This document shows, piece after piece, positions 55,980 to 63,877 of a stretch of DNA of 64,000 nucleotides. The notes under the pieces are model-generated. The model made no database searches and had not been told where the DNA came from. It saw nothing but the letters and a program-made list of their open reading frames with translations. The translations under genes were made by a program, and so were the position numbers. The stretch covers positions 2,914,001 to 2,978,000 of the forward strand of contig NZ_CP019607.1 in assembly GCF_001998865.1 (NCBI RefSeq), written 5' to 3'. How positions within the stretch are numbered: the stretch's first letter is position 1; the number at the start of each line of letters is the position of its first letter. This DNA is from Tessaracoccus flavescens (GTDB lineage: Bacteria; Actinomycetota; Actinomycetes; Propionibacteriales; Propionibacteriaceae).

Positions 55980-56909
55980 TCAGCTGACGCGATCTCCGGT
56001 CGCCAGGTCGAAGGCGAGAGGTTCGCCGTCGACGACGCACTGAAGGAGCAGTTGGCCGGTCTCCGGCGAGCACCGCCGTGAGCGCCTCCGCAGTCACCGC
56101 GCCAGGGGAGAACGGAGCACGGGACTCGTAGTCCACGAGGGGAGGAACGCACTGCACAAGGCTGCGCGACTGGCCCGGGACCAGTGCTTGCAGCACGGCC
56201 CCGTCGCAGGGCTCATCGCCCAAGAAGGCCTTCGCGTCTCCCGCGATCTGGACGTTGCGGGCGTCGTCCCCCGCCGCAACCATGACCGAGTACTAGGCGC
56301 CGCCGATGGCGGCCTCAGCCGTCTGAAGCCACGCATTCCAGGACGCCTCGTCTGCGAGCGCCGCGTCCCCGGACACGGGGGCGGGCGCCTGCTGAACGTC
56401 GCCGAGGTAGACGGCAAGGTCGGGGGCGGTGGTGTCGAGGGAGCAACGGTAGGTAACCAGGGGCTGCCCGGTCGGGGTCGCCTGCACGGTGATCCCGACC
56501 CGCTCGCGCTCGCACGCCCCGGCGTCCGGAGTCCGCGCCAGGATCCCCTCGGCGTCCAGCCGATCGAGCGGCAGGGGAACGGAACCTTCGTCGGCGCCGC
56601 GTCCGGGTCGGTGGTGTCGCGAAGCTCGTCGCCCCAGAGATCATGCTGGTACTCGAGAGTGCGGGTCTCGCTGTCGGTGACGACGGTGACGTTGAGGATT
56701 CCGGGCGCGTGATAGAAGATGGCGATCTCGCCGCCGTCCACCTGCGCGGTCGCGCGCTCAAGCAGCTTCGGGAGGTCGTCTGGTCGGTCGGCGGACTGCC
56801 ACCAGAGCACGACCCCGCCCACGGCGAGCAGCGCGAGGACGAGCACAGCGACGATGTGGGCCGGGCGGCGCCTGATGGCGCCGGCCGGCCCGGATGTTTC
56901 AGCTGTCAT
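55980..56909 (-). pseudogene. Frameshifted gene for a membrane-anchored exported protein
   Basis: A reading frame begins at ATG 56909 with one transmembrane helix (IVAVLVLALLAVGGVVLWW), then an external domain (DVDGGEIAIFYHAPGILNVTV-like, DLWGDELRDTTDP). The rest continues in another frame: TGQPLVTYRCSLDTTAPDLA, an in-frame TAG after AAIGGA at 56293, readthrough sequence VAAGDDARNVQIAGDAKAFLG, and a further shift to ETGQLLLQCVVDGEPLAFDL ending at 55980. At least two frameshifts and one nonsense codon. Original function unknown. Confidence 0.72.
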
Positions 56910-56965: not shown

Positions 56966-58399
56966 TCAGCCGGTGAAGCGCACGATGTTGTTGAACACCA
57001 TGCCCTTCGTCCACGCGTACCTGGCGGGCTGACCCGGCTTCGCGACGTTGCTGATGTAGCTGGTCTCGGTGTAGCTGCGGCAGCCGTTGCGTCCGGTCTT
57101 GGCGTTGTCGCACTCGGTGAACCACTTACGGCCGTTGACCACGTGCGTGCCGGGCGTGGCGAGCGGGTTGCCCTTCCAGATCGCGCGGGCTGAGGGCTGG
57201 TAGGTCAGGTTGTTGAACGTCCACCCGTTGCTCGCGTAGAAGGATCCGTTGGCCGCCTGCTTGATGACGGTCGCCTGGATGTCGGTGCGGCAGCGGGTCG
57301 TCGCCGAGTACTTCTCGCAGCTGGTGCGCCACTGGCGACCGTTGAGCGTGTGCTGCCCCGGCGTGGAATAGACGTCGAAGCCGCCGCGCTTGAGCCGGTA
57401 GAAGTCGACGGGTGCGTAGGAGAAGAGGCCCTGGGTCGTGGCACGCACCCACGTGCCGCGGTTCAGGTTGGTGATGCCCTTCGCCTTGTCGGCGGCGCTG
57501 TAGGCGATGGCGCCGGAGTCGGCGCCGCTGGTGATGGTCATCGACCCCATCCAGGTCCTCGTCCTCGCGACCGTTCCCGAGTCGAGATCGGACAGCGCGG
57601 CTGCGACGAGGCCCGTCGTGTTGGCGTTCTCGACCTCCGTGTAGACGGGGGCACCCCAGTACGAGCCGTTGCCGCGCTGCAGCTTCTTCAGGTAGCCGAC
57701 GGCCTTCGTCAGCGGCGCGTCGGCGGCCTTGATGCCCTTCGCCTTCGCGGCACGCAGGCCCATCACGAGGAGCGCGGTGCCGTCCGGGTCGGACTGGGCG
57801 GTGCAGCCCTTGCCCGCGGTGAAGTTCATCGGGAATCCGCCGTCGGCGCACTGCTTGCCCGCGACGAAGGAGACGGTGGAGGCGGGGAGGGTGCCGGTGC
57901 GGGCGAGGCCGATCATGGCGTAGCCCTGGCCGAAGGCGTTGGTGCCCTTCGACCATCCGGCCTCACCCGAGCCGTTGAACGAGGCAGCGGTGAGGGCGCG
58001 CGGGTTGATCCCGTCGTAGGAGGTAGTGCTGCGTCCCGAGGCCGACAGCGCGACCAGCGCCTTGGCGATCATGCCGTTGTCCTGCTGGGTCCCGTAGTTG
58101 GCGTTTGCCATGACCCGCTCCTTGAACGGGCCCTCGGCGGCCTTGAGCCAGCCGTCGGTCGTGGCCTGGGGCGCGCCCGCGGCGAGGCCGGCGAGGACGG
58201 CGTCGAGGGTGAGGCCGGGGTCCGCGGTTCCGGCGACCGATTCGAGCATCTTGTGTTTGGCCGAGGTCTGCTTGGCCATCCAGGCGACCGCCGCGACGGC
58301 CCTGTCGGCGTCGTGGCTCTCGGCGTTGGCGGGCAGGGAGGGGGCGATCGCAACTCCGGCGACCAGTGCGGCTGTCAGCAGCCGTGCGCGTGCACGCAT
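56966..58399 (-). CDS. Secreted alpha/alpha-toroid protein under a cobalamin riboswitch (transcobalamin alpha-domain-like)
   Basis: 477 residues. Signal peptide (~1-27, ending PANA). Residues ~30-330 form repeated helical hairpins: AVLAGLAAG, MIAKALVALSASG, GYAMIGLARTG, ALLVMGLRAAKAKG, TTGLVAAALSDL. This is the pattern of terpene-cyclase/prenyltransferase-like alpha6/alpha6 barrels and of the alpha domain of intrinsic factor and transcobalamin. Residues ~336-477 are two ~70-residue repeats, each with PGxHxxNGRxWxTxC, a CR pair and a FNN segment. A cobalamin riboswitch lies directly upstream. Predicted to bind or present cobalamin outside the cell; a polysaccharide-binding role for the C-terminal repeats is possible. 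Cobalamin binding is inference. Confidence 0.75.
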   Translation of the reverse strand: MRARARLLTAALVAGVAIAPSLPANAESHDADRAVAAVAWMAKQTSAKHKMLESVAGTADPGLTLDAVLAGLAAGAPQATTDGWLKAAEGPFKERVMANANYGTQQDNGMIAKALVALSASGRSTTSYDGINPRALTAASFNGSGEAGWSKGTNAFGQGYAMIGLARTGTLPASTVSFVAGKQCADGGFPMNFTAGKGCTAQSDPDGTALLVMGLRAAKAKGIKAADAPLTKAVGYLKKLQRGNGSYWGAPVYTEVENANTTGLVAAALSDLDSGTVARTRTWMGSMTITSGADSGAIAYSAADKAKGITNLNRGTWVRATTQGLFSYAPVDFYRLKRGGFDVYSTPGQHTLNGRQWRTSCEKYSATTRCRTDIQATVIKQAANGSFYASNGWTFNNLTYQPSARAIWKGNPLATPGTHVVNGRKWFTECDNAKTGRNGCRSYTETSYISNVAKPGQPARYAWTKGMVFNNIVRFTG

Positions 58400-58444
58400 G
58401 TGGATCCTTTCGCGTCATTCCGCTGGCCATCTGCCGCGGACGAT

Positions 58445-58557
58445 CCGTGTGTGCCGAGCCCAGGTCCGACTTGCCCCGACGAGGGGGTCACGGTTGCGCG
58501 TCAGTCCCGGATTCGCACCGGATTCCACGCTCGGCCTGCTGAGCGTAACACGCTGTC
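58445..58557 (-). promoter_or_regulatory. Cobalamin riboswitch upstream of the alpha/alpha-toroid gene
   Basis: On the minus strand the core GGTGCGAATCCGGGACTGAC, then GCGCAACCGTGA, and the B12-box-like AGTCGGACCTGG appear in the order and spacing of the cobalamin class. GCCGAGC and GCTCGGC can form the closing stem. The gene's RBS (AAAGGA) lies ~45 bases beyond, so either transcription or translation could be controlled. High cobalamin would be expected to switch expression off. Confidence 0.88.
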
Positions 58558-58599
58558 ACCCGGGACTGTGCGGGCGGCTTCGAGGAAGCGTCCTTCGGC

Positions 58600-59445
58600 T
58601 CAGCCGGTCTTGGCGGGGGCGGCGATCCGGGCCATCCCGGACGCGCGCCGCAGCACCGTCAGGACGGGTCGTCCGAGGATCAGGATGGCGAGGCTCGTGG
58701 TGATCGCCCTGCCGGTGTCCCAGCCGCCGGTCGAGGTGATCAGCGTGAACCAGCCGAACCGGGTGAGGTTCTCTCCGATCGGTGCCCCGGGGATGTAGTC
58801 CAGGCTCCCCGGGACGCCGTTGGCGTCGATGTCGGAGATGAAGGGCCAGAACCAGAGGTTCATCAGCGCGCCGTAGACGTAGGCCGAGACGATGCCGAAG
58901 ACGATCAGCATGACGATCTCCCAGCGGCCCTTTACCCGTCTTGGCAGCAGCCCGGCGGCCAGCCCCACCCAGCCAGCGCACAGCATCTGGAACGGAAGCC
59001 ACGGGCCGATGCCCGCGGTGAGCAGGGCCGAGGCGAACAGCGACGTGAACCCCAGCAGATAGCCGAACCCTGGCCCGAAGGCGCGCCCCGCGAGCACGAG
59101 CAGGAAGAAGACCGACTCGATGCCCGCCGTTCCCGCCCCGAGTGCCGGTCGGATCGCGGCGTTGATGGCGGAAAGGACGCCCAGCACCGCGAGCGCCTTC
59201 GAGTCGAGTCCGCCCTCGGCGACCTGGGCGATCACCAGGAGCAGGATGATCGGCAGCAGCGCCGCGAAGACGAACGGCGCGTCCTCGGCGTGCTGAGGGG
59301 AGACGTCGACGGCCGGGATGATCAGCGGCCACCCCAACGCGAACAGCCCGAGCAGCGTCGACAGCGCGATGACCAGCCAGGTCCGCCAGCCGAGGGCGAC
59401 GCCGATCACCGGGTCCGGGATCTCCAGGGACTCAGCGCGAGGCAT
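58600..59445 (-). CDS. ECF transporter substrate-specific (S) component, probable cobalamin type
   Basis: A 281-residue membrane protein with about six to seven helices (TWLVIALSTLLGLFALGWPLI; FVFAALLPIILLLVIAQ; FLLVLAGRAFGPGFGYLLGF). Aromatic and glycine-rich loops (GALMNLWFWPF) resemble ECF S components that bind vitamins. It is encoded last in the T-ATPase-S operon under a cobalamin riboswitch, so cobalamin or a precursor is the likely ligand (a CbrT-like role); no cobalamin-specific residue is recognised. ATG 59445 overlaps the ATPase stop by 14 bases. Confidence 0.8.
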   Translation of the reverse strand: MPRAESLEIPDPVIGVALGWRTWLVIALSTLLGLFALGWPLIIPAVDVSPQHAEDAPFVFAALLPIILLLVIAQVAEGGLDSKALAVLGVLSAINAAIRPALGAGTAGIESVFFLLVLAGRAFGPGFGYLLGFTSLFASALLTAGIGPWLPFQMLCAGWVGLAAGLLPRRVKGRWEIVMLIVFGIVSAYVYGALMNLWFWPFISDIDANGVPGSLDYIPGAPIGENLTRFGWFTLITSTGGWDTGRAITTSLAILILGRPVLTVLRRASGMARIAAPAKTG

Positions 59446-60988
59446 CGACGAACTCCCTGACGGTGAGCACAGGGGTGGGGTTTGCCACCTTCGCGACCTG
59501 CGTGGCGAGGAGCGCCGACCCGGCGAGCACCGGGCGGGTCGGCCCGTCGGAGACGATCTCGCCCTCGGCCATCACGACGACCCGCTCGCACGTCTCGGCG
59601 ACCATCTCGACGTCGTGGGTGGCGATCAGCACCGACCGGCCCGCCGCGGCGAGGTCGGCGATGATGCGGCTCAGTTCGGCCTTCGCGGCGTAGTCGAGGC
59701 CGCGGGTGGGCTCGTCGAGCAGCACGACGGGCGGGTCCCCGGCGAGCTCGACGGCGAGCACCACGGCGAGCTTCTGCCCCTCCGACAGGTCGCGCGGATG
59801 GGCCGACGGGTCGATGGTCGGGACGAGCCGCCGCAGCAGGGCCAGCGTCGTGCCGGCCTCGAGTTCGGCGTTGCGGTCGCTCATCGAGCACTCCGCCTCG
59901 ACGGAGGTGAGGTAGAGCAGGTCGGCGGGGGTCTGCGGGACCAGCGCGATCCGGTCTGCGAGCTCGACGGTGCCGCCGTCGCGTCGACCCGCACCCTGGA
60001 TGGCCCACATCAGGCTCGACTTGCCGCAGCCGTTGCGCCCCATCAGCGCCGTCACCTCGCCCTTGTGCAGGGTCAGGTCGACGCCGGACACGGCGAGTTT
60101 CTCGGGGTAACGCACGATGATGCCCTGCGCGCGCAGCGCGATGTCCGTGTGCGGCAGGGGAGCAGGCAGTGCCGGCGGCTGGTCGCGCCAGCGCTGGCGT
60201 TCGGCCGACGCGGCCCTGCGCCCCTCCCGGATCGTCAGCGGCAGCGGCGACCAGCCGAGCTCCACCCCCAACTCCACCAGCGGTGGCTTGATCGGAGAGG
60301 TGCGCAGCATGGCGCGGGTCTCTCCGACGCTGACCTCGTCACCGACGAGCAGCACGCTGTCCGCGAACTCGATCACGCGCTCCATCCGGTGCTCGGCGAT
60401 GACGACGGTGGTGCCGAGGTCGCGGACGAGTCGGCTGATCGTGGCGAGCACCTCCTCGGCGGCGATCGGGTCGAGCGCGGAGGTGGGCTCGTCGAGGACG
60501 AGCACCTGCGGCGAACTGGCGATCACCGAACCGATCGCGACGCGCTGCTGTTGCCCGCCCGACAGAGTGCGCAGCGGCCGCGCGCGCAGGTCGGCAATGC
60601 CGAGCAGGTCGAGCGTCTCCTCGACGCGGCGGCGCATCTCCGCGGGCGGGAACCCCAGTTGCTCCATCGAGTAGGCCAGTTCCTCTTCGACGACATCGGT
60701 CACGAAGCCGGCGAGCGGATCCTGGCCCACGTAGCCGACGGTGGTCGCGAGTTCCCGGGGCTGCAGCATCGTGGTGTCCCTGCCGTCGATGACGATGCGG
60801 CCGGTGCGCACGCCCCCCGTGAAGCGGGGGACCAGGTTGTTGATGCAGCCGAGCAGGGTCGACTTTCCGCTGCCGGTCGGCCCGACGACGAGGCACAACT
60901 CGCCCTCCTCCAGCTCGAAGCTGGCGTGGCTGAGCCGGAGCACCTCGTTGTTGGCGTAGCGGAGGCTGACGTCGTCGAAGGTGATCAT
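59432..60988 (-). CDS. ECF transporter double ATPase (fused EcfA-EcfA')
   Basis: 518 residues holding two complete ABC ATPase domains. First half: Walker A GPTGSGKST (36-44), ABC signature LSGGQQQRVAIG and Walker B VLVLDEPTSALD. Second half: Walker A GRNGCGKSS (317-325), signature LSEGQKLAVVLA and Walker B VVLLDEPTRGLD. ECF energy modules usually use two separate ATPases; here they are one chain. It energises the T and S subunits encoded on either side. ATG at 60988 overlaps the T-subunit stop (ATGA). Confidence 0.92.
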   Translation of the reverse strand: MITFDDVSLRYANNEVLRLSHASFELEEGELCLVVGPTGSGKSTLLGCINNLVPRFTGGVRTGRIVIDGRDTTMLQPRELATTVGYVGQDPLAGFVTDVVEEELAYSMEQLGFPPAEMRRRVEETLDLLGIADLRARPLRTLSGGQQQRVAIGSVIASSPQVLVLDEPTSALDPIAAEEVLATISRLVRDLGTTVVIAEHRMERVIEFADSVLLVGDEVSVGETRAMLRTSPIKPPLVELGVELGWSPLPLTIREGRRAASAERQRWRDQPPALPAPLPHTDIALRAQGIIVRYPEKLAVSGVDLTLHKGEVTALMGRNGCGKSSLMWAIQGAGRRDGGTVELADRIALVPQTPADLLYLTSVEAECSMSDRNAELEAGTTLALLRRLVPTIDPSAHPRDLSEGQKLAVVLAVELAGDPPVVLLDEPTRGLDYAAKAELSRIIADLAAAGRSVLIATHDVEMVAETCERVVVMAEGEIVSDGPTRPVLAGSALLATQVAKVANPTPVLTVREFVDASR

Positions 60989-62112
60989 GCAGACCTCCGG
61001 ATCTCGGGAGCGGGCGTGATGAAGGCGGGAAGGGCGGCGACGATCAGGACCAGCAGGAGCGGCAGGTCGAGGGCGGGCCACTGGAATGGTGAGACCGAGG
61101 GGAACAGGATCCAGGCGTCTGCGTAGTTCGCCCTGAGGTAGATGGTGACGGCCGGGATGACGCCGCAGGCGACGGCGAGCGTCTCCGCGAGCCCCCAACG
61201 GATCGGGCGGTACTGGGTGCGCTGTACGTCGCGCCCGGAGATGCGCAGGGCGGCCACCGCCGCGCCGACCCCGACCGCGAGCAGGACGGTGGAGATCACC
61301 GGGATGTCAAGCAGGCGGAGATCGGGCACGCCGCCCAGGAACCGGAACGCCCAGACAGCGAGCCCGCCCATGGAGACCAGAGCGAGGCCGAGGGACAGCG
61401 CCCGGTCCCGAGGGGTCTGCGTACCGGTGCGGCCGTAGCCGCGCACATCCATCGATGCCGCAAGCGAGAGTGAGCGCTCCAGCGCGTCCGACAGCACGGG
61501 AACGATGATCGTCTCGACGACCCGTAGCCGCTCCCGGCGCGTGCGCGTCGCCGGGGCCCGCCGCAGCTTCCGCGCCCGGGCCACCCGCTGCAGGGACTCT
61601 CCGAGCTGGGGGAGGGCCGAGACGGCCACGATCATCACGGTGCCCAGCTCGTAGAGGGCCCCGGGAAGGCTGGCCAGCAGCTTCTTCGGGTTGGCGAGCG
61701 AGTTGGCCGCGCCGAAGCAGACCACGATCATGGCGAGCCGGGCGCCGTCGTAGAAGCCGCTCAGCACCGACTCGAGCGAGACGGGGCCGAGCAGCCTGAT
61801 CCCGCGCACCCAGCTCGGCAGGGGGATCTCGGGGAGGGTGAACAGGATCGTCGGCCCGTCCGCCCCGCCGAACAGCACCCGGAATCCGATCCGCACGACG
61901 ATGATGAACGCGGCCAGGTACAGGTACATGCGAAAGGATCGCGCCCAGGGGTTCGAGCCGCGCCGCGACACCGTCACCAGGCAGATCACGGCGATGAACC
62001 CGAGCAGCAGCAGGGGGTTCGTCGTGGTCGACCCGGCGACGGCGATGGCGAGGGCGTAGCCCCACCAGGCGAACGGGTGCAGTTGGCGGGGCAGCAGGTA
62101 GCGCTGAATCAC
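60985..62112 (-). CDS. ECF transporter transmembrane T component
   Basis: About 375 residues, with six or more helices and the cytosolic coupling helices of EcfT, including [13 protein letters not shown] (the ARG-type motif that docks on the ATPases). GTG 62112 is chosen because it overlaps the preceding TGA (GTGA); GTG 62130 is an alternative giving six more residues. With the fused ATPase and the S component it forms a complete group I ECF importer. Strand order from the riboswitch: two secreted proteins, T, ATPase, S. Confidence 0.85.
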
Positions 62113-63074
62113 AGTCCGCGTCGTCGCCACCAGACGATGCCGCCTCCGGCTCCGATCGCCGCGACGACCCCGACCCCGACGAAGGTGCCGAGCGGAACCC
62201 CTGCTGGCTCGGCAGGCACGGTTGGCGCCGCTGTCGAGGACGGGCTCGGCGTGGGCGTCGGTGTCGGCGAAGGGCTCGGGGTGGGGGTCGGCGTCGGCGA
62301 CTGGATCGGGGAACGGGACGGGCTCGGCGTGGGGGTCGGGCTGGGCGTCGGCGTCGGCGCGGCCGAGCGCGACGGTGTGGGCCTCGCTGACGGTGTCGCC
62401 GACGCAGTGGTGGGGCGTTTCGTCGGCTCGGCGCTCGGCACCTCCGCGCTGGAGGCGGGAGCCTCCGGCGTCGGCTCGGGCGCCTGTCCGGTCTCCGCGG
62501 CCGTAGGCTCGGCCGGCTCGGGCGCCGCCGTCGTCGGCTCGGCGACGGGGTGTGTGGGCTTCACCCTGGGGGCCGGGTTGGTGTCCTTCGCCTTGTTCAG
62601 CGAGAACGACCACCCTTCGTAGCCACCGAGGATCGCCTCGTGCGCCGCTCCTCCTGTCTGGGAAAAGGTCCACCTGCCGCCGTTGTCTGCGTGCCAGTAC
62701 GACCAGAAGGCCCCGTCCGGCGGGGTCTGCCCGCAGCGCTCCCGGTAGGTCGGGTCCCCCGTGAGTGGAAGGGTCTCGTTGACGCCGGGCCTGCCGCCGA
62801 TCCGACACACGAAGCTCGGCCCGTCGTGCAGGGTGCCCTCGGGATTCAGCCCGGCCAACTGCAGGATCTGCAGCCCCGAGGTGCCCGGCTCGACCCCGGA
62901 GATGCAGGTGACGATCGTCTCGCCTCCGAGGTCCTGGTAGTCGACCACGAGCGTGACGCCTGCGTCATCGGTGCACGCGCCGGCGGTGACGTCCGCCGCC
63001 GCGGGGGTGCTGTCGATCCAGGCCGAGCCGAGGACGAGCAGACCCGCCGCGGTGGCGGCGGTGGTGCGTCGCAT
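62109..63074 (-). CDS. Exported DUF4430/transcobalamin-C-like protein with P/T/S stalk and membrane anchor
   Basis: 321 residues. Signal peptide (~1-27, ending AAA). Residues ~30-150 form a compact domain with the transcobalamin-C/DUF4430 style: [40 protein letters not shown]. Three or four cysteines suggest disulfides. Residues ~160-285 are a Pro/Thr/Ser-rich stalk with [11 protein letters not shown] repeats, and the C-terminus is one helix ([21 protein letters not shown]) with RRR, anchoring the domain at the cell surface. Cobalamin ligand is inferred from the riboswitch and the ECF neighbours. Confidence 0.78.
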
Positions 63075-63080
63075 CAGGGA

Positions 63081-63698
63081 TCAGACTCCCGAGTCGGGCA
63101 GGCCCGGCTTGACGGTGGGAGCGACGGTCGGCTTCGCGGGCGTCGGCGTGGCTGCGCTCGGGGTGGCAGCGGGGGTCGACGGCACGAGACTCGGCGTGGC
63201 TGCGGGGGTGGACGGCTCCGGAGTGGGCGTGGCGTCGAGGGTGACGCCCTCGACCGGGTCGGCGGTCGGGGCGACGGCATCGACCTCCCAGTCAGGCTGC
63301 AGCACGAGCGCGAGGACGTCGCTCGCGGACAGTTCGAGCTGCCCGAGGCCGACCTGCGCGAACTCCCACTCCGCCGGGTAGGCGCCATCTGCGGGGCTCT
63401 TCGAGTAGACCGACCACCACTCCCTGTCCTTGGCGGTGCGGCCGTCGATCTCGGTGACGTAGGCGTCGGTCTGCGTGGTCAGGCCTGTGTCGAGCAGGGC
63501 CTCCTGGGCGGTGCGGAACTTCTCGGCGCACGCGCCGGTGGTCGTCTCGTCGTACTGCACGTGCACCCAGACAAGGCCTGCCTGGACGCATTCGGCGGCG
63601 GTGGCCGGCGCGGCATTCGCGGTGACCGCCGGGACGGCGAGGCCTGCGGTGAGGATGGCTGCCGCGGTCAGCGCGGCGGGCTTTGAGTGGCGGAACAT
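63081..63698 (-). CDS. Secreted DUF4430/transcobalamin-C-like protein
   Basis: 205 residues. Signal peptide (~1-30, ending ANA). Residues ~32-135 resemble DUF4430: VWVHVQYDETTTGACAEKF, TAQEALLDTGLTTQTDAYV, REWWSVYSKSPADG and DVLALVLQPDW. A Pro/Thr-rich tail follows. The protein ends GLPDSGV, a sorting-signal-like pattern but with no following membrane helix. First gene after the second cobalamin riboswitch; RBS GAGGG. The stop (TGA) is followed two codons later, in the same frame, by the ATG of the next gene. Confidence 0.78.
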   Translation of the reverse strand: MFRHSKPAALTAAAILTAGLAVPAVTANAAPATAAECVQAGLVWVHVQYDETTTGACAEKFRTAQEALLDTGLTTQTDAYVTEIDGRTAKDREWWSVYSKSPADGAYPAEWEFAQVGLGQLELSASDVLALVLQPDWEVDAVAPTADPVEGVTLDATPTPEPSTPAATPSLVPSTPAATPSAATPTPAKPTVAPTVKPGLPDSGV

Positions 63699-63754
63699 GT
63701 GGCCCTCGAATCGTTTGGTCCGTCGGCCACGGGGCTTGTCCGCTTGTGCGACGG

Positions 63755-63870
63755 AGGATCAACCTGACGCCAGACGGCGGTCCGACTCCCCGCGAGGCTC
63801 GCGGGATCACGGTTGCGCGACAGCTCCGGGATCTCACCGGATTCATCCGCCTGACGGGCGTCACCTTACC
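63755..63870 (-). promoter_or_regulatory. Cobalamin riboswitch upstream of the DUF4430/ECF operon
   Basis: On the minus strand CCGGTGAGATCCCGGAGCTG, GCGCAACCGTGATCCC and the box AGTCGGACCGCC are in the canonical order; GACGCC and GGCGTC form the closing stem. It precedes the ATG at 63698 by ~60 bases. This would switch off the whole secreted-protein/T/ATPase/S operon when cobalamin is plentiful. Confidence 0.9.
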
Positions 63871-63877
63871 CCAGCGC

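Follow-up and report, generated by a model that had tools for sequence, protein, structure and literature searches.

When the alpha and beta domains of human transcobalamin are expressed apart, they co-elute only with cyanocobalamin present, and the isolated beta domain binds cobalamin (PMC5599065). Burroughs et al. 2007 proposed bacterial transcobalamin-like proteins, with a toroid and a beta domain, as binders of B12 in the manner of transcobalamin (PMC1796856). The available portion of that paper places the SLBB/transcobalamin-like clade in animals, low-GC Gram-positives, planctomycetes and euryarchaea, gives toroid fusions from Desulfotomaculum and Bacillus, and mentions actinobacteria once, for ComEA. 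Here we describe a locus on the minus strand of a 64,000-nucleotide window from Tessaracoccus flavescens (contig NZ_CP019607.1, positions 2,914,001 to 2,978,000; the window is the whole stretch of DNA analysed, and coordinates refer to it). The last 7 kb of the window hold two cobalamin riboswitches, two secreted beta proteins, the genes of an energy-coupling factor (ECF) importer and a toroid gene. We suggest, with a probability of about 0.7, that the locus is a cobalamin, or wider cobamide, capture and import system, in which split transcobalamin-like proteins feed the ECF importer.

In order of transcription the locus consists of a riboswitch, a 205-aa protein, a 321-aa protein, EcfT, a fused EcfAA', EcfS, a second riboswitch and a 477-aa toroid protein:

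63737..63844, minus strand: cobalamin riboswitch ahead of the beta/ECF operon (RF00174, permissive settings)
63081..63698, minus strand: beta-domain protein 1, secreted, 205 aa (weak DUF4430; beta profile A7)
62109..63074, minus strand: beta-domain protein 2, secreted, 321 aa (transcobalamin/intrinsic-factor beta fold predicted)
60985..62112, minus strand: EcfT, transmembrane coupling protein (Pfam CbiQ 4.1e-8, over cut-off)
59432..60988, minus strand: EcfAA', two ABC ATPase domains in a single chain (ABC_tran 8.4e-50, two stretches)
58600..59445, minus strand: EcfS, substrate-binding membrane component (ECF_trnsprt PF12822 1.3e-12, over cut-off)
58453..58535, minus strand: adenosylcobalamin-type riboswitch ahead of the toroid gene (RF01482, permissive settings)
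56966..58399, minus strand: alpha/alpha toroid protein, secreted, 477 aa (predicted structure)
56972..57376, minus strand: C-terminal module of the toroid protein, residues 342-476 (repeated in the host genome and relatives)

The first five genes are spaced by one 6-base gap and then by overlaps of 4, 4 and 14 bases, and this nearly abutting arrangement suggests one operon. The chosen GTG start of EcfT overlaps the stop of the preceding gene. The toroid gene follows 200 bases after EcfS and has its own riboswitch. A preliminary description of this DNA had stated that the toroid and beta folds occur here as separate secreted proteins, which agrees with the separate genes, the signal-like N-termini (secretion was judged by eye from the sequence) and the predicted folds given below. 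The full ECF importer that it had placed alongside is also recovered, as the adjoining genes supply EcfT, two ABC ATPase domains and an S-component. Profile searches are clear for these ECF parts (CbiQ, ABC_tran in two stretches, ECF_trnsprt); EcfAA' in addition matches ECF_ATPase (TIGR04521) at 4.2e-78, under the cut-off of that family.

The 321-aa protein has no Pfam match up to an expectation value (E) of 1. Its beta domain (62559-62993) is predicted to have the beta-grasp beta fold of the transcobalamin/intrinsic-factor type: by VIA the model is closest to transcobalamin, haptocorrin, intrinsic factor and 3u7z, with a clear gap to the rest, and by Foldseek intrinsic factor and transcobalamin take ranks 1-7 (E 0.016-0.064). 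Identity to the animal chains is 16-23% across 95-102 aligned residues. The protein ends in a hydrophobic C-terminal segment and an Arg tail. The 205-aa protein, with its beta domain at about 63279-63611, matches beta profile A7 at 1.7e-13, the window sequence being one row of that profile, and has a signal-like start and a Pro/Thr-rich tail (alignment A3). Of the DUF4430-like motifs described earlier for the beta proteins, those of the 205-aa protein stand as a weak match to PF14478 (E 0.0081, 17.0 against a gathering cut-off of 23.8); Pfam finds none in the 321-aa protein. NCBIfam NF040672, the SCO2322 family, whose name carries no function, matches 28 of the 29 beta domains of the family at E up to 0.01, and the window's beta protein scores 30.4, not reaching the curated cut-off of 85. 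It should be noted that the 205-aa protein carries a GLPxTG-like motif at its extreme C-terminus, with no membrane segment beyond, and that the G-x-P-x-x-G pattern at this position is kept in 15/15 aligned family members.

The toroid domain lies at about 57395-58318 within the gene for the 477-aa protein. From the AF2 model (predicted local distance difference test, pLDDT, 92.2) the protein is predicted to have an alpha/alpha (alpha6/alpha6) toroid fold and not an unrelated one, and in a Foldseek search of this model against PDB ranks 1-10 are all transcobalamin, nearest by E-value. Its apparent particular closeness to transcobalamin comes solely from Foldseek. By sequence the window toroid has no Pfam match up to E 1, Cobalamin_bind (PF01122) included. 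Where toroid relatives are named, their existing labels are hypothetical, terpene cyclase, squalene oxidase repeat and cell wall anchor proteins. Behind the toroid domain follows a C-terminal module of about 135 aa without a Pfam match, to which the host genome has 34 more matches spread over about 33 places. In relatives the same module occurs on proteins that are otherwise unrelated, including leucine-rich-repeat, CAP, peptidase and Ig-like ones. Judged from this distribution, it is probably a lineage-wide, general surface-attachment module.

The claim that both kinds of protein stand behind cobalamin riboswitches was borne out at two sites on the minus strand, each directly upstream of a gene: the first leads into the beta/ECF genes, the second into the toroid gene. 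At the Rfam gathering thresholds no riboswitch is found in the window. In a permissive Rfam search, 63737-63844 matches RF00174 with 25.8 bits (gathering 31.5, E 0.0018) and 58453-58535 matches RF01482 with 43.4 bits (gathering 50, E 1.5e-5). Our own model R1, trained on 32 sites from the host and the beta-profile locus set described below, gives 99.1 bits at 63743-63874 (L011) and 83.4 bits at 58431-58553 (L001), each site being an R1 training row. The matches in the window are beyond chance, because the arrangement recurs among relatives.

Searching the whole host genome against RF00174 gave seven matches at E up to 10, six of them at or below E 0.0013; of these six clear matches a single one exceeds the gathering score. 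Because gathering thresholds miss the other five and both sites in the window, cobalamin riboswitches of actinobacteria may be under-reported. For Streptomyces lividans, an Rfam-based list gives two cobalamin riboswitches, located upstream of cbiM and of cob genes (PMC8079986), which fits the low Rfam scores of the riboswitches described here.

The association of toroid, beta and riboswitch asserted in the preliminary description is kept in relatives. A scan with the beta profile gave 306 matching stretches, from which 78 loci were kept. A toroid is present in 65 of these loci, EcfS in 63 and a riboswitch of at least 45 bits by R1 in 72; all three are found together in 54/78, and several of the incomplete loci end at contig ends. 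Among the 56 loci that contribute no training sequence to R1, 50 have a riboswitch of at least 45 bits. A frequent gene order is riboswitch, toroid, one or two beta genes, EcfT, EcfAA' and EcfS. Our table of neighbours kept 107 of 121 riboswitch matches, omitting those under 45 bits; the next gene belongs to the system for 98 of these strong riboswitches and not for the remaining 9.

Co-occurrence was also counted in a class sample of 196 Actinomycetes genomes, which may overlap in species with the loci named here. At least 99 of them match the toroid profile at E up to 0.001; applying our own minimum of 57 bits, we counted 74 as toroid genomes and dropped the 25 weaker ones. EcfS accompanies the toroid in 73 of 74 genomes and beta in 93 of 95; it is matched in 105 genomes overall, and all three parts occur in 67. 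In these counts Fisher values ignore kinship, the many weak beta matches (E 1e-4 to 1e-6) are all included, and two partial EcfS matches are still counted.

From the 74 toroid genomes we fetched 40 toroid-centred loci, the 20 best other than the host and 20 spread lower down. They hold beta in 38 cases (37 by the stricter single-domain E), EcfS in 36, EcfT in 36 and, anywhere in the fetched stretch, a riboswitch of at least 42 bits in 39; one locus without EcfS, L138, is truncated by a contig end. As controls we used 10 loci with weak, terpene-cyclase-like toroid matches, four of them from genomes with a clear toroid elsewhere, and none of the 10 holds beta, EcfS, EcfT or a riboswitch. When loci were given to Rfam, a riboswitch over gathering was found directly before the toroid gene in 3/3 loci of relatives (L065 from Streptomyces, L128 and L162), L128 having a second match under gathering, and no riboswitch was found in 3/3 control loci.

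In several relatives the beta domain and toroid are encoded in one reading frame. The beta domain comes first in L049, L073, L078, L086, L090 and others, including L020 with the first beta subfamily, and the toroid comes first in L041 and L085. A quick tree of toroid domains (129 in all, 16 fused) shows 12 changes between fused and split, at least 10 of them forced by well-supported branches; this count is approximate, as the program warns of joining long branches. Such repeated fusion, with either part leading, would be expected if the two parts serve one machine.

Cobalamin riboswitches as a class generally exert OFF control. At low intracellular cobalamin both riboswitches would permit expression of their genes; the predicted folds of the two leaders give no support for ribosome-site hiding. 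Three proteins would then act together in the manner of transcobalamin: a beta protein anchored in the membrane (62109-63074), a soluble beta partner (63081-63698) and the toroid (56966-58399), probably attached to the surface. In brief, the tethered beta protein would catch cobalamin, with the beta domain on one face and the toroid closing on the other, and the ligand would be handed to EcfS and imported by EcfT and EcfAA'. We propose this sequence of catch, clamp and receipt because of the assembly of the human domains (PMC5599065) and the argument of Burroughs et al. 2007 (PMC1796856). If this is true, the ECF importer gains a dedicated extracellular capture stage. For a more specific form we see even odds: that Actinobacteria have a split transcobalamin assembled by its ligand, in which a membrane-tethered beta protein and a surface toroid clamp one cobamide for the ECF importer, that its halves were joined or parted at least 10 times, and that one such joined form would be a model for the origin of the animal carriers.

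A number of results weigh against the proposed capture and import system, some of them concerning the place of the toroid. No recognisable toroid is found in 26 of the 93 genomes having both beta and EcfS. We fetched 16 toroid-less loci, namely 13 of these 26, two with beta and no EcfS and one with EcfS and no beta (E 0.001), and a search for the toroid in them found none even at E 1. The beta gene adjoins ECF genes in 13/13 of the beta and EcfS loci. A riboswitch of at least 45 bits is present in six of these 13 and in the other three loci, and seven of the 13 have no riboswitch match. In six of those seven, one or two long frames next to a beta-domain gene encode the ECF parts (L182, L183 and L186-L189, five from one family and one from another); the seventh is close to a contig end. 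The core of the system thus consists of beta and ECF, often joined by the toroid, and some lineages show no tie to cobalamin control. Such loci would be explained if beta and ECF alone captured and imported cobalamin, while the toroid served as a separate store or as a binder of other cobamides or cobinamide, the two never sharing one molecule. The toroid of the window having its own riboswitch, a second host toroid protein without a detectable beta domain and the binding of cobalamin by the human beta domain alone (PMC5599065) all fit this explanation. We nevertheless consider it unlikely, as the repeated beta and toroid fusions and the frequent order of riboswitch, toroid, beta and ECF genes favour joint action.

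The structural and sequence comparisons of the toroid raise another doubt, since the protein could be a secreted enzyme, a terpene cyclase or glycosidase, with an incidental neighbourhood. The toroid model superposes poorly on transcobalamin overall (root mean square deviation 22-24 A, TM-score 0.31-0.39), and several terpene cyclases and glycosidases superpose better (TM-score 0.41-0.45). By VIA its 50 best rows are GH76, terpene cyclases and other enzymes. When a toroid sequence profile was compared with PDB chains, terpene cyclases were nearest, squalene-hopene cyclase at E 1.8e-32, and transcobalamin was absent among the matches up to E 10. Pfam Cobalamin_bind is found in only 4 of 41 toroid family rows (E up to 0.1, best 2.1e-4). 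The catalytic motif of class II terpene cyclases is DxDD. This motif is present in 10/10 control ORFs (open reading frames) and in none of the toroid rows of two alignments (0/41 and 0/54); alignment A1 comprises the window toroid protein and 53 of 108 homologues, the remainder being mostly matches to the C-terminal module or the same protein. With the toroid linked to beta, ECF and riboswitch, all 10 cyclase-like controls lacking these, and a comparison of catalytic residues that covered the cyclase motif, an enzyme is hardly to be expected here.

The importer might also carry cobalt or a precursor of cobalamin. Its EcfT has a match to the CbiQ family, and cobalamin riboswitches can govern cobalt importers, as in the cbiM operon of Streptomyces lividans (PMC8079986). 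Against this, the host has a separate CbiM and CbiQ next to cob genes, and that cluster carries riboswitches of its own; moreover, Pfam assigns the EcfS of the window to ECF_trnsprt, not to CbiM. We know of no transcobalamin-like cobalt binder, and hold this alternative to be very improbable. Some further points count against cobalamin capture. Searched with a family profile, EcfS matches no PDB sequence up to E 1, a negative of little weight given how far S-components diverge, CbrT and FolT2 being 16% identical (PMC5997447). DUF4430 matches only one of the 29 beta domains of the family, and the leader of the toroid gene has no unusually stable fold (z -0.31). The host has genes of cobalamin biosynthesis and of cobalt import, and with cob genes present capture need not be its sole source of cobalamin.

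In the rest of the host genome, two cobalamin riboswitches lie within the cob/CbiM/CbiQ cluster, and two others are those of the window. Another precedes the second toroid protein, which bears the same C-terminal module as the first. A leucine-rich-repeat protein of the host (L094:6090-8735) also stands behind a riboswitch and combines a beta domain of transcobalamin type with the C-terminal module. By profile the host totals three beta domains and two toroids. Cobalamin riboswitches precede all five, the second beta gene being gene two of its operon. Two B12-binding Pfam domains in the host represent two candidate B12 enzymes. Among the long-frame loci of relatives, L182 encodes EcfT, EcfAA' and EcfS in a single 1006-aa ORF, with a lipoprotein-like beta gene and metH (TIGR02082, over cut-off) in the same 17 kb. 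Downstream of the toroid gene in the window, the ORF at 56094-56909 has a membrane-like start, and its coding character, judged by eye, apparently fades midway; it may be frame-broken.

In our view, the route by which a large and scarce cofactor crosses the Gram-positive wall to reach an importer without a classical binding protein is an open question. The locus offers a concrete, conserved and testable answer, in which the halves of intrinsic factor and transcobalamin would be separate, exchangeable bacterial genes. Such a system is easily overlooked because of the names under which its toroid relatives are filed and because the riboswitches in the window fall below the Rfam cut-offs.

In the literature searched, as judged from titles and the starts of abstracts and with subscription papers mostly outside, no split, ECF-linked actinobacterial system is described. 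Surface B12 lipoproteins of gut Bacteroides likewise are extra proteins that capture B12 at the cell surface (PMC6143338); they are likened here by function. ECF-CbrT of Lactobacillus delbrueckii is, like the importer of the window, of ECF type and tied to cobalamin (PMC5997447). It differs in using a shared ECF module, with CbrT in an nrdJ-cbrS-cbrT-pduO cluster, and the words 'riboswitch' and 'lipoprotein' are absent from the text of that paper. The SLBB/transcobalamin-like bacterial proteins share with the locus a toroid and beta-grasp pair predicted to bind B12, signal peptides and cell-wall anchors, whereas the available portion of PMC1796856 has no split or ECF-linked form. Animal transcobalamin, intrinsic factor and haptocorrin have the same two folds, as far as the predicted structures tell, and are secreted. 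They are one chain, whereas the parts are separate chains in the window, and one chain in some relatives; the window further differs in having two beta proteins per toroid, a bacterial C-terminal module, cobalamin riboswitches and an ECF importer. Because the bacterial toroid and beta pair and ECF importers for B12 are each known, what appears to be new is the split, ECF-coupled actinobacterial form.

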